Positions 33,067-38,604 of a DNA stretch of 64,000 bases are shown here, one piece after another. Below the pieces are notes generated by a model that was not told where the DNA came from, searched no databases, and was given only the letters and a program-made list of their open reading frames with translations. Both the position numbers and the translations under genes were made by a program. Location: assembly GCF_030406045.1 (NCBI RefSeq), contig NZ_CP128988.1, forward strand, positions 2,877,001-2,941,000, given 5' to 3'. Within the stretch, counting starts at the first letter, position 1; each line of letters starts with the position of its first letter. The stretch is from Thiohalobacter sp. IOR34. Lineage in GTDB: Bacteria > Pseudomonadota > Gammaproteobacteria > Thiohalobacterales > Thiohalobacteraceae.

Positions 33067-33720
33067 TCAGGGCCTGGCCGCGGCCTGCCGGGCCTGGCGC
33101 TCCCGCTCGATGAGATAGTCCACCACCCGCAGCATCGCCTCGTGGCTGCCGGCGTCGCTGGCCGAGGTGCGGTACTTGCCATTGACGATCAGGCTCGGCA
33201 CGCCGCGAATCCCCGAGCGGCGGGTCAACTGGCGAGCCCGGTTGATCTTGGTCAGTACGCCGAAGGAGTTGTAGGTGGCGTCGAAATCCTTGCCGCTGAC
33301 ACCCTGTTCAACGAAGAACTTGCGTAGATCATCGGCCGAACGGAAGCGCCGGCGCTCCTGATGGATGGCGCGGAACAGCGGGGCATGGATCCTGTCTTCC
33401 ACCCCGAGCAGCTCGGCGGTATACCAGGCACGTGCCAGCGGCTCCCAGTTCTTCGCCAGCACGGCGGGGACGCGCACGAATTCCACGTCAGCGGGCTGAC
33501 GCTTCAGCCAGTCCGCCAGTTCCGGCTCCAGCTGATAGCAATGCGGACAACCGTACCAGAACATCTCCACCACCTCGATCTTGGCCGGATCACGGGTCGG
33601 CAGCGGCGGTGAGATGCGCTTGTATTCGATACCTTCGTCGAAACCAGCGGCGCTGGCGGCGCCGGCCATGAACAGGGCCGCCAGCAGCGGCATCAGCCAG
33701 GAGATGATTTTTCTACGCAT
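33067..33720 (-). CDS. dsbA: Thiol:disulphide interchange protein DsbA
   Basis: A 217-residue periplasmic oxidase that introduces disulphides into exported proteins. Signal peptide (residues 1-25, ending ASAA), thioredoxin-fold active site CPHC (Cys58, Cys61) in FWYGCPHC, and the cis-proline in RGVPSLIV. ATG at 33720 begins the signal peptide. Relevant to the many periplasmic cytochromes here, though it is a housekeeping protein. Confidence 0.92.
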   Translation of the reverse strand: MRRKIISWLMPLLAALFMAGAASAAGFDEGIEYKRISPPLPTRDPAKIEVVEMFWYGCPHCYQLEPELADWLKRQPADVEFVRVPAVLAKNWEPLARAWYTAELLGVEDRIHAPLFRAIHQERRRFRSADDLRKFFVEQGVSGKDFDATYNSFGVLTKINRARQLTRRSGIRGVPSLIVNGKYRTSASDAGSHEAMLRVVDYLIERERQARQAAARP

Positions 33721-33758
33721 GAGACACCTTAGAGAGATTTGGATGTTAGGGCCTGTTG

Positions 33759-34005
33759 ACACCCCACCCAATGGGCCCTGCCGGGACTCTTTTTTCGTCC
33801 AGCAAGGCAGAATGAGCGAGGTGTAGTCAGTCTACATGAGCGAATGATAACGCCGCTGGGCGGGAAAAGAGCCCCAGCCCTGCGGGTTGCGCCTGAAAAA
33901 GCGCCACTCCGCGTTGCTCGTCGTTCATTTGGCGTCACCAAACCGCTCTCCTCGCGCCTTGATTGGCGCTTTTTCAGACGCAACAGGGCCCATTGGGTGG
34001 GGTGT
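33759..34005. mobile_element. 247-bp palindromic element (MITE-like) upstream of dsbA
   Basis: Perfect 22-bp terminal inverted repeats at 33759-33780 (ACACCCCACCCAATGGGCCC..) and 33984-34005. An inner inverted pair (GCGCCTGAAAAAGCGCC at 33889-33905 and its near complement at 33965-33981) abuts the right end, the same outer/inner layout as the element in the nor locus. No coding capacity. The rest of 34006-34201 shows nothing recognisable. Confidence 0.8.
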
Positions 34006-34262: not shown

Positions 34263-34874
34263 TCAGCGCAGGCCCTGCACGTAGCTGGCCACGGCCGCGA
34301 TCTCCTCGTCGGTCATCCGCGCCGCGACACCGCGCATCATCTTGCCGGCGTCGTTGCTGCGGCTGCCGTCACGGAAGGCCTTGAGCTGGTTCTCGACATA
34401 CTTGGCGTGCTGACCGGCCAGAGCCGGGAAGTTGGCTGCCGGGTTGCCGGCGCCGTTCGGCGCGTGGCAGGCCATGCAGGCGGCCACGCCCGTGGTCTTG
34501 TTGCCGCCACGATAGATCTTCTCGCCCAGATCGACCAGCTTGGGGTCGGCCTCGCCCAGCTTCTTGGCCTGGCTGGCGAAGAAGGCCGCGACGTTTTCCA
34601 TGTCCTGCGGGCTGAGGCCGACGGCCATGGGCGCCATCAGGGCGTTGCTGCGCCGTCCGGCCTTGAAGTCGGCCAGCTGCTTGGCCAGGTACTTGGCGTG
34701 CTGACCGGCCAGCTTCGGCCATTCGGGGTTGACGCTGTTGCCGTCGGCACCGTGACAGCTGGCGCACATGGCGGCCTTCTCCTTGCCGGCAGCCGCGTCG
34801 GCGGCCATGGCGGAACTGGCGGCAAAGGCCGCAGAAAGGGTCATAACTGCTGCAAAAACAAGCTGCTTGTTCAT
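34263..34874 (-). CDS. Cytochrome c4 (dihaem)
   Basis: A 203-residue periplasmic dihaem cytochrome. The signal peptide ends at SAMA (~25), and each half carries one haem site: CASCH (Cys37, Cys40) and CMACH near residue 132, each followed by LAGQHAKY. Cytochrome c4 donates electrons to terminal oxidases or reductases. The cc4-engB divergent arrangement is conserved in gammaproteobacteria. ATG at 34874 starts the signal peptide; the longer frame to 35048 is not supported. Confidence 0.93.
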   Translation of the reverse strand: MNKQLVFAAVMTLSAAFAASSAMAADAAAGKEKAAMCASCHGADGNSVNPEWPKLAGQHAKYLAKQLADFKAGRRSNALMAPMAVGLSPQDMENVAAFFASQAKKLGEADPKLVDLGEKIYRGGNKTTGVAACMACHAPNGAGNPAANFPALAGQHAKYVENQLKAFRDGSRSNDAGKMMRGVAARMTDEEIAAVASYVQGLR

Positions 34875-35065
34875 CTTGGACAGGACTCCTGAGCCTTGCT
34901 GCCGCCGGCTTGCGGCCGGCTTCTGGATGCGGCGCACCGCCATGCGCCCCGAAATTTTGGAGCGCCATTTATACCAGCGAGGGCTGCCTGCTTCAATAGC
35001 AGGGGCTGTACCCGTCAGCCTGGAAACCCTCGCCAGCCGGGTCCGCATGGTGCAAAATCCCGCCC

Positions 35066-35674
35066 ATGATCAATCACTTCGCACGGGCCCGCTTCCTCAC
35101 CAGCGCACCGACCCTGTCCCAGGCACCGCCGGACGAGGGACGCGAGGCGGCCTTCGCCGGCCGCTCCAACGCCGGCAAGTCCAGTGCCCTGAACGCGATC
35201 AGCGGCCAGCGCGCCCTGGCCCGGACCAGCAAGACCCCGGGCCGCACCCGGCTGATCAACTTCTTCCAGGTCACCGGCGAGGCCCGGCTGGTGGACCTTC
35301 CCGGCTACGGTTACGCCAAGGTCTCACAGAAGGTGAAGGCCGAGTGGCAGCGCCATCTGGCCGAATACCTGGAGCGGCGCCGCTCGCTGGCCGGCCTGAT
35401 CCTGCTGATGGACATTCGCCACCCGCTCACCGAGGCCGACCTGCAGATGCTGGGCTGGGCCCAGGCGGCTGGCCTGCCGGTGCATATCCTGCTGACTAAG
35501 GCCGACAAGCTGAAGCGCGGCCCGGCCCAGGCGGCCCTGCTCGGGGTGCGCAAGGCCCTGCGCGAGGCGGGCATCGAGGCCAGCGTGCAGCTGTTCTCGG
35601 CGCTGAAGAAGACGGGTCTGGACGAGGTGCGCGCCCTGCTCAGCGACTGGCTGGAACTGCCACAGGAAGAATAG
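35066..35674 (+). CDS. engB: Ribosome biogenesis GTP-binding protein EngB (YihA/YsxC)
   Basis: A 202-residue essential GTPase in large ribosomal subunit assembly. G1 is GRSNAGKSS (residues 32-40), G3 DLPGYGYA, G4 TKADK. It is divergent from cytochrome c4 and convergent with polA, the classical gammaproteobacterial order. Confidence 0.95.
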
Positions 35675-35690
35675 GGGAATAACGCCGGCG

Positions 35691-35820
35691 CAAAAAGAAG
35701 CCCCGGTATCCAAGGGGGGGAGAGATACCAGGGCCAACGTCACCCGGCCCTGGGGAGGGCCGGTCAGGAGGAATGTCCGCTCCAGGGAGGGAGAGCGGAT
35801 TCCAGCAACCACTCAGGTTG
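35691..35820 (-). ncRNA. Candidate small RNA between polA and engB (Spot 42/ErsA/sX13 position)
   Basis: Read on the minus strand, three hairpins occur in series. Hairpin A (35770-35803) has an 11-bp stem with loop TCCCTCCCTG. Hairpin B (35744-35763) has an 8-bp CCGGCCCT/AGGGCCGG stem with loop CCCC. Hairpin C (35701-35733) has a 10-bp stem with a C-rich loop and is followed by CTTCTTTTTG, an intrinsic terminator. polA has its own terminator upstream. The RNA would be about 130 nt. Spot 42 in enterobacteria and ErsA in Pseudomonas sit between these same genes; C-rich loops typically pair with ribosome-binding sites. The 5' end and promoter are not determined. Confidence 0.6.
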
Positions 35821-35845
35821 TACTACGTTGGAACGGCAAAGGGAG

Positions 35846-35869
35846 AAAAGGTTCCCGGCGGCGGAAACC
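35846..35869 (-). terminator. Terminator of polA
   Basis: On the minus strand GGTTTCC-GCCGCC-GGGAACC forms a 7-bp stem (one T-G pair) 30 bp after the polA stop, followed by TTTTC. It separates polA from the sRNA candidate. Confidence 0.7.
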
Positions 35870-35898: not shown

Positions 35899-38604
35899 TC
35901 AGTGCGCCTCGTCCCAGTTGGCGCCGATGCCGATCTCCACCAGCAGCGGGATGGCCAGCTCGGCCGCGCCCTCCATGCAGCCGCGGATCCCCTCGCTGGC
36001 GGCCGCCAGATCCGCCTCCCCCACCTCGAACACCAGCTCGTCGTGCACCTGCATGATCATCCGCACTTCCAGCCCGGCCCCCTGCAACCAGTCGTGGGTG
36101 CGGATCATGGCCCGCTTGATGATGTCCGCCGCGCTGCCCTGCATCGGAGCGTTGATGGCGGTGCGCTCGGCGGCCGCGCGGCGCTGCTGGTTGCGGGCAT
36201 TGATCTCCGGCAGGTACAGGCGCCGCCCGAACAGCGTTTCCACATAGCCGTCCTCGTGGGCCTTGGCCCGGGTGGCGTCCATGTAGGCCTTGACCCCGGG
36301 ATAGCGGGCGAAGTAACGCTCGACGTACTCCTGGGCGGCGGCCCGCTCGATGCCCAGCTGCCGGGCCAGGCCGAAGGCCGACATGCCGTAGATCAGCCCG
36401 AAGTTGATCGCCTTGGCCGAGCGGCGCTGGTCGGCCGTGACCGCCTCCGGCGGCACCCCGAACACCTCGGCGGCGGTGGCGCGATGGATGTCCTGGCCCT
36501 CGGCGAAGGCGCGCAGCAGGCCCGCGTCGCCCGACAGGTGGGCCATGATGCGCAACTCGATCTGCGAGTAGTCGGCGGCGAGGATGCGCCTGCCGGGCGG
36601 GGCGATGAAGGCCTGGCGGATGCGCCGCCCCTCCTCGGTGCGCACCGGGATGTTCTGCAGATTGGGGTCGGTGGAGGACAGGCGGCCGGTGGCGGCCACC
36701 GCCTGCTGATAGGAGGTGTGCACCCGCCCGGTGACCGGGTTGATCTGCTGCGGCAACTTGTCGGTGTAGGTCGACTTGAGCTTGGCCAGCGAACGGTGTT
36801 CGAGGATCAGCCGCGGCAGCGGGTAGTCCAGCGCCAGCTCGGCGAGCACCGATTCGGCGGTGGATGGCGCGCCCTTGGGGGTCTTGGCCAGCACCGGCAG
36901 GCCCTGCTTCTCGAACAGGATCTCCTGGATCTGCTTCGGTGAACCGAGGTTGAAGGGCTGGCCGGCGAGCCGCTGGGCCTCGGCCTCGATCTCGTGCAGC
37001 CGCCCGGCCAGCTCACGGCTCTGCTCGGCCAACAGCCTGGCGTCGATCAGCACCCCGGTCCGCTCCATGTGCGACAGCACCGGCACCAGCGGCAGCTCGA
37101 TGGTCTCGAACACCCGGCGCAGCGCCGGTTCGGACTCCAGCCGCGGCCACAGGGCCTGGTGCAGGCGCAGGGTGATGTCGGCATCCTCGGCGGCATAGGG
37201 CGCAGCCTGCTCCAGCGGCACCTCGTTGAAGCTGAGCTGCTTGGCACCCTTGCCCGCCACCTGCTCGAAACTGATGGTCTTGCGCCCCAGGTATTTCAGT
37301 GCCAGCGAATCCATGTCGTGGCGGCTGGCCGTGGAGTCCAGCACATAGGATTCGAGCATGGTGTCGTAGCCGATGCCGGCCAGCTCGATGCCGTGGTTGG
37401 CCAGCACGTTCATGTCGTATTTCAGGTTCTGGCCGATCTTGCGCGGTGCCGGATCCTCGAGCAGCGGCTTCAACCGCGCCAGCACCGCCTCGCGATCGAG
37501 CTGCGCCGGGGCGCCGGGATAGTCGTGGGCCAGGGGCACATAGGCCGCCTCGCCCGCCTCCACGGCGAAGGAAACGCCGACGATGCGTGCCTCCATGTAG
37601 TCGAGGCTGGTGGTCTCGGTGTCGAAGGCGAAGTGTGGCGCTGCCTCCAGCCGCTCCAGCCAGGCCACCAAGCGGGCCTCGTCGAGCACCGTCTCGTAGT
37701 CACCGTCCGTTGCCGCCGGCGGGTCCTCGCCGGCCTCGGCCGGGGCATCGAGCAACTCCTTCAGCCAGCTGCGGAATTCCAGCTGCTGATAGAGTTCGCG
37801 CAGCCGCTCCCGGTCCGGCTCGCGCAGCTGCAGGTCGTCGGGGCCGACCGGCAGCTCGAGGTCGCAGCGGATGCTGGCCAGCCGGCGGGACAGCTCCAGG
37901 TCGTCGAGGTGCTGGCGCAGACTCTCGCCGACCTTGCCCTTGATCTCGTTGGCATGTGCGATGATGGCGTCCAGCGAGCCGTACTGGTTGAGCCACTTGG
38001 CGGCGGTCTTGGGCCCCACCCGGGGCACGCCGGGGATGTTGTCCGAGCTGTCTCCGACCAGCGCCAGGTAGTCGACGATGCGCTCCGGCGGCACACCGAA
38101 CTTCTCGATCACCCCGTCACGGTCCAGGGTGGTGTTGGTCATGGTGTTGACCAGGGTCACCCTGTCGCCGACCAGCTGGGCCATGTCCTTGTCACCGGTG
38201 GAGATCAGCACCGGCCGGCCCTCGGCCGCGGCCTGCCGCGCCAGGGTGCCGATGACGTCATCGGCCTCCACCCCCGGCACGATCAGCATCGGGAAGCCCA
38301 GCGCCTCGACCAGCTGGTGCAGCGGCTCGATCTGCGCCACCAGGTCGTCCGGCATCGGCGGCCGGTGCGCCTTGTACTGCTCGAACATCTCGTCGCGAAA
38401 GGTCTTGCCCTTGGCGTCGAACACCACCGCCACCTGCCGGGGCCGGTAGTCCTTGAGCAAGCGGCGCAGCATGTTGGCCACGCCGTAGACGGCACCGGTC
38501 GGTTCGCCGCGGGAATTGGTCAGCGGTGGCAGGGCGTGGTAGGCCCGGTAGAGATAGGACGAACCGTCGACGAGGATCAGGGGTGGGCTAGCTGGGTCGG
38601 TCAT
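35899..38604 (-). CDS. polA: DNA polymerase I
   Basis: A 901-residue three-domain enzyme: N-terminal 5' nuclease ([27 protein letters not shown]), 3'-5' proofreading domain with intact acidic motif [13 protein letters not shown], and C-terminal polymerase with motif [17 protein letters not shown], motif [18 protein letters not shown] and motif [11 protein letters not shown]. Functions in Okazaki fragment processing and repair. Full length. Confidence 0.98.

Follow-up and report, generated by a model that had tools for sequence, protein, structure and literature searches.

A small RNA gene with C-rich hairpin loops almost certainly lies between polA and engB in Thiohalobacter sp. IOR34, a conclusion that rests on comparative evidence, and we regard this RNA as a variant in a wider, apparently undescribed superfamily that is outlined jointly by two covariance models, R1 and R2, together with the models of sX13, ErsA and anti-hemB. 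All positions refer to a 64,000-nucleotide stretch of contig NZ_CP128988.1, which we call the window. Our reading of the whole, which we consider likely, is that an RNA made under sigma-E blocks translation through its C-rich loops and belongs to a polA/engB family with sX13, anti-hemB and, distantly, ErsA. The original prediction, that this spot encodes a C-loop small RNA comparable to ErsA and sX13, is supported; its transcription is inferred, in the absence of expression data.

Architecture of the polA-engB gap

The gap between polA and engB is 224 bp long and contains three hairpins on the minus strand, followed by an intrinsic terminator. The features of the locus, in the direction of the predicted RNA, are as follows.

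35899..38604, minus strand: polA (DNA polymerase I), from open reading frame and homology; upstream of the RNA on the same strand, with its stop at 35899
35850..35869, minus strand: stem earlier read as a polA terminator, from the terminator scan; overlaps the -35 element
35828..35855, minus strand: putative sigma-E/AlgU-type promoter GGAACCT-N15-TTCCAA (-35 at 35855-35849, -10 at 35833-35828), agreeing with 10 of 13 consensus positions
35691..35822, minus strand: predicted small RNA of ~130 nt, from the R1 match and the fold; runs from polA towards engB
35806..35820, minus strand: short 5' hairpin CAACC-TGAGT-GGTTG, from the fold; variable, as relatives carry other short 5' hairpins
35770..35803, minus strand: hairpin SL1, loop CCCTCCCT at 35791-35784; two-sided changes in 11 of 11 pairs of helix 1
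35767..35774, minus strand: ATTCCTCC, a stretch complementary to the Shine-Dalgarno sequence; common to several other families and part-paired in the window
35744..35763, minus strand: hairpin SL2, loop CCCC at 35755-35752; two-sided changes in 7 of 7 pairs
35699..35735, minus strand: hairpin SL3, the intrinsic terminator stem, loop CTCCCCCCCTT at 35722-35712; two-sided changes in 7 of 9 pairs
35691..35698, minus strand: U-rich terminator tail TCTTTTTG directly 3' of SL3, from sequence and terminator scan
35066..35674, plus strand: engB/yihA GTPase, from open reading frame and homology; convergent neighbour, with its stop at 35674

The start of the RNA at about 35822 is inferred, and corresponds to a point roughly 6 nt past the -10 element. 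The structure and terminator are direct results of computation: the fold of the region is more stable than chance (z = -4.2 to -4.7, with none of 200 dinucleotide shuffles as stable), and the terminator scan returned two terminator-like sites where 0.4 were expected. The loop of SL1 sits within TCCCTCCCTG. The original prediction of three minus-strand hairpins with C-rich loops and an intrinsic terminator therefore held, with one correction: the last loop had been described as a run of eight C, and the longest C run, which is in the SL3 loop, is seven.

Conservation and covariation of the hairpins

The R1 covariance model was built from three sister genomes only, with the window left out, and nevertheless matched the window at 35691-35807 with 82.9 bits (E = 8.8e-20, 467 kb searched). 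Beyond the window it matched approximately 35 loci, including loci in Sedimenticola, Thiodiazotropha and Microbulbifer. Similarity of the gap at the DNA level was found in 10 of 56 genomes searched, the window's own included, almost all of them within its family. The polA-engB gaps of relatives share the same hairpin plan, with altered stems and constant C-rich loops. Across 25 aligned members, two-sided compensatory changes were present in 25 of the 27 stem pairs and paired cells amounted to 95.7%. The covariation score was 0.702, compared with 0.190 for shuffled alignments (0.702 was reached in none of 500 shuffles), and structures slid along the alignment scored at most 0.116.

These values must be read with some caution, since the structure guided the alignment and the result is biased in its favour. 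An alignment blind to structure recovered SL2 and SL3 with two-sided changes; SL1 was out of register and was not recovered. The loops CCUCCCU, CCCC and CCCCUU are conserved while the stems vary by compensation, and this is the pattern in related genomes, compensatory stem changes around conserved C loops, that had been named beforehand as support for the RNA.

A sigma-E-type promoter motif upstream of the RNA

In relatives, the hairpins are preceded on the 5' side by GGAACTT and, 15-17 nt further on, by a GTCTGA-like element. Promoters of the sigma-E/AlgU class have this form, which we scored as the consensus GGAACTT-N15-17-GTCTRA over 13 positions. All 35 gaps carried a motif matching at least 9 of the 13, and 28 of the 35 matched at least 10, compared with 2.3 expected from dinucleotide shuffles; at the same threshold of at least 10 of 13, the opposite strand gave 1 of 35 and polA coding stretches of equal size gave 4. 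The 35 gaps are kin by descent, so these counts are not independent events. When the set was picked by the RNA model only, 67 of 94 matches had a sigma-E-type site upstream, where chance predicts 2.2; most of these sites precede the start of the model by 18-31 nt.

Within the window itself the -10 element (TTCCAA) is non-ideal, and the motif taken alone reaches only about p = 0.05 in the window gap. The same form of motif that precedes ErsA is present, at 10 of 13 positions, and is conserved in relatives; that it acts as a promoter is inferred. A separate polA terminator had been proposed at 35846-35869. A stem is indeed present there (35869-35850), but the terminator reading is disfavoured, and we consider this stem better explained as part of the promoter -35 because only its right arm, GGGAACC, recurs in relatives (as GGGAAC-TT, by eye) whereas the left arm does not.

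The genome encodes one RpoE above the curated cut-off, as well as Hfq. Inspection by eye upstream of rpoE did not recognise a motif with normal spacing, and nothing resembling a sigma-70 site turned up in the RNA region. The curated sX13 loci have only a degenerate motif, matching 8 of 13 positions, and sigma-E control is therefore not universal. For the window RNA we infer that control by sigma-E is likely, although neither transcription nor dependence on RpoE has been observed.

Extent of the family

The wider covariance model, R2, was run on a sample of 276 genomes from the class and matched in 149 of them, representing 121 of 216 genera. We inspected 77 match loci: polA lay upstream on the same strand in 47, engB lay convergent downstream in 47, and 64 adjoined polA and/or engB (three of these in reversed arrangement), leaving 13 next to neither gene. 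Some genomes carry tandem copies, up to four. Two to four copies in a single gap were seen at G166:C33, G259:C8 and G226:C1, where mostly each copy has its own sigma-E-type motif, and in L034, L070, L030, L026, L018 and L022. The window RNA fulfils two criteria for membership of the superfamily under the R1 and R2 models, namely a match with the window absent from the model and covarying SL1-SL3; its expression as a discrete RNA is inferred.

Twelve weak R2 matches came from alphaproteobacteria-like genomes, which belong to the same phylum and another class. We did not count these as family members; the three loci inspected all lacked polA and engB nearby.

The window's genome also contains a weak R2 match of 28.6 bits at G000:C1:2685053-2685145 (L178:1501-1593, minus strand). 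An ECF sigma-factor gene (2686170) lies about 1 kb away, and the match has no sigma-E-type motif upstream. A second series of C-rich hairpins with a terminator scores 30.5 bits at L180:349-453 on the plus strand (about G000:C1:383501-383605); a TTGACA-like element stands in front of it, and it lies ~2.8 kb upstream of the major porin gene.

Relationship to known small RNAs

At the gathering threshold, no Rfam family matched anywhere in the window. Below the cut-offs, the highest scores were those of anti-hemB (28 bits), ar14 (27.8), sX13 (27.4) and Pseudomon-1/ErsA (21.8). Comparison with covariance models had been proposed as a check, and it supports the prediction in that R2 matches coincide with three curated sX13 loci (44-50 bits) and with one curated ErsA locus (30.6 bits). 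The window itself falls below both Rfam cut-offs. In true sX13 genomes the best genome-wide R2 match is the sX13 locus. Conversely, the sX13 and ErsA models, used below their cut-offs, land mostly on R2 loci when judged by eye, and both land on the tandem cluster at G166:C33. We do not file the window RNA as sX13, ErsA or anti-hemB because it scores below the Rfam cut-offs.

One parallel in architecture is sX13 (RF02232, Xanthomonadaceae), which likewise follows polA on the same strand, is ~115 nt long and has three hairpins with C-rich loops and an intrinsic terminator. Its 4C/4C/5C pattern of apical loops is matched by the window loops CCCTCCCT, CCCC and CTCCCCCCCTT, the first being C-rich without a run of four. 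It differs in that the window, at 27.4 bits, falls short of the sX13 cut-off of 50, and in its degenerate promoter motif. This RNA has been described as restricted to Xanthomonadaceae and as constitutively expressed with modulation by stress, and its repression of mRNAs requires the C-rich loops together with 4G or G-rich motifs near start sites (PMC3771888).

ErsA (Pseudomon-1, RF01719; Pseudomonas; 132 nt) occupies the polA-engB gap on the same strand and shares C-rich loops in SL2 and SL3. It depends on sigma-22, a sigma-E homologue (PMC7565897), and its sigma-E-family promoter, TGAACTT-N16-GTCATA in L132, has the same form as the putative one in the window. It aligns to R2 over SL2-SL3 only (30.6 bits), that is, over two of three hairpins, and the window's 21.8 bits fall short of its cut-off of 50. 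The low scores of both ErsA and sX13 leave room for some convergence.

The third relative, anti-hemB/ncS04 (RF02837, Burkholderia), shares an SL1 of the form CCGC-CUCCUCCCUG-GCGG and a terminator hairpin. The locus L101 exceeds the anti-hemB cut-off and reaches 80 bits with R2. A sigma-E-type motif precedes it and engB follows in convergent orientation, but a search of 1.5 kb around it did not reveal polA. The window, at 28 bits, stays below the cut-off of 49.5.

The parallel that the original prediction drew with Spot 42 (spf, Escherichia coli) held for position alone. Spot 42 lies in the polA-engB/yihA gap on the same strand, and is under CRP-cAMP with a role in carbon metabolism. Membership in RF00021 was rejected: R2 scores only 13.1 bits at spf, and RF00021 gave no match in the window at gathering threshold, nor in the region with the limit relaxed to E<=10. 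The sigma-E-dependent RybB, MicA and MicL of E. coli, small RNAs that lower the synthesis of outer-membrane proteins (see also PMC1804206), are parallels in manner of working; their loci are unrelated. Bordetella S17 was rejected as a relative because it lies elsewhere, at coq7, and is transcribed by sigma-A (PMC11722255). In the limited literature searched, we found no paper naming ErsA and sX13 together.

Proposed mechanism and candidate targets

In the scenario we propose, a sigma-E-type promoter located shortly after polA would drive a free-standing RNA of ~130 nt that ends at the SL3 terminator. Misfolded envelope proteins would activate RpoE, and the RNA would accumulate. Its single-stranded C-rich parts (the CUCC linker and the loops of all three hairpins) would then base-pair with mRNAs at their G-rich ribosome-binding sites and so prevent translation. 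Both production under envelope stress and blocking of G-rich sites are proposed because of the analogy with sX13 and ErsA; the pairing itself is inferred, and we regard the blocking of ribosome-binding sites by the C loops as probable.

The targets would likely be outer-membrane proteins, with the major porin as first candidate and UGGAUAAGGGGA as the site. Five genomes of the family share TGGATAAGGGGA in the start region of the major porin gene (PF13609), whereas the rest of the leader differs; this sequence is found in L219 around position 1465, and also in L215, L216, L217 and L220. The window's genome holds three instances of ATAAGGGG-N4-8-ATG, one of them at the major porin, and AAGGGG occurs at none of 56 gene starts in the window (starts chosen by script and uncurated). 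Loop 3 supplies CCCCUU as a possible partner of the porin site UAAGGGG. The motif is thus conserved and rare, but about 30% of control gene starts equal the energy of the loop-porin pairing, which is therefore not distinctive and does not separate the porin from controls; the major porin remains a possible target, inferred and offered as a hypothesis.

For loop 1, a search in relatives for its complement CAGGGAGG followed by ATG yielded 14 sites and no recurrent envelope gene. Recurrence was limited to one pair of close orthologues, and we claim no loop-1 target.

Alternative explanations

One may postulate that the C-loop RNA is real and conserved and is not under sigma-E, being made from another promoter or by processing of the polA transcript, with a physiology like that of sX13 or Spot 42. 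The degenerate motif at sX13 loci and the constitutive, stress-modulated expression of sX13 (PMC3771888) speak for this, as does the imperfect -10 of the window. Against it, the motif stands at a near-constant upstream distance in those 67 of 94 members and is present at 9 of 13 or better in every one of the 35 gaps, far above the other strand, and the region yielded no sigma-70-like site. We consider this alternative unlikely.

A second alternative, also unlikely and compatible with the RNA being real, is that the likeness to sX13 and ErsA reflects convergence, with independent C-loop RNAs arising in the same gap. In its favour, alphaproteobacterial C-loop RNAs score weakly with R2 where polA and engB do not adjoin, ErsA fits only two of three hairpins, and the window is below the Rfam cut-offs. 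On the other hand, locus, strand and hairpin number are shared, with ErsA sharing also the promoter type; the best R2 match in sX13 genomes is the sX13 locus, and sub-threshold matches of the sX13 and ErsA models fall mostly on the same loci.

That the hairpins merely terminate transcription in several parts, or stabilise the polA mRNA at its 3' end, with no regulatory role, fits a region that follows polA on the same strand and ends in an intrinsic terminator, but is very unlikely given that the loops are conserved while the stems compensate, which a terminator does not need, that a promoter motif stands between polA and the hairpins and tandem copies have promoter motifs of their own, and that sX13, ErsA and ncS04/anti-hemB are expressed RNAs.

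Evolutionary implications

The study describing sX13 asked if such small RNAs are encoded at the polA locus in other bacteria too (PMC3771888). For roughly half of the class genomes sampled here, the computed answer is yes, and the shared promoter type suggests a common role in envelope stress. RNAs of Pseudomonas, Xanthomonas and Burkholderia that were named separately could become one family, such that targets and mechanisms could be tested across its members.

A bolder interpretation derives ErsA, sX13, anti-hemB and the window RNA from a single ancient small RNA under sigma-E control in the gammaproteobacteria (taken broadly, to include the betaproteobacteria), fixed at polA-engB, whose C-rich loops would lower porin synthesis under envelope stress; Spot 42 would then be, in enterobacteria, a replacement or a strongly diverged descendant. 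We consider this interpretation about as likely as not.

Other observations

Two further reading frames were noted 3' of engB, both on the minus strand and assigned by translation only: a two-haem cytochrome c4-like ORF at 34263-35048 and a DsbA-like ORF at 33067-33771. Elsewhere in the genome, a borderline match to a LuxI-type autoinducer synthase lies at G000:C1:1747609-1748103 on the minus strand, with 24.2 bits with neighbours in frame against a cut-off of 24.
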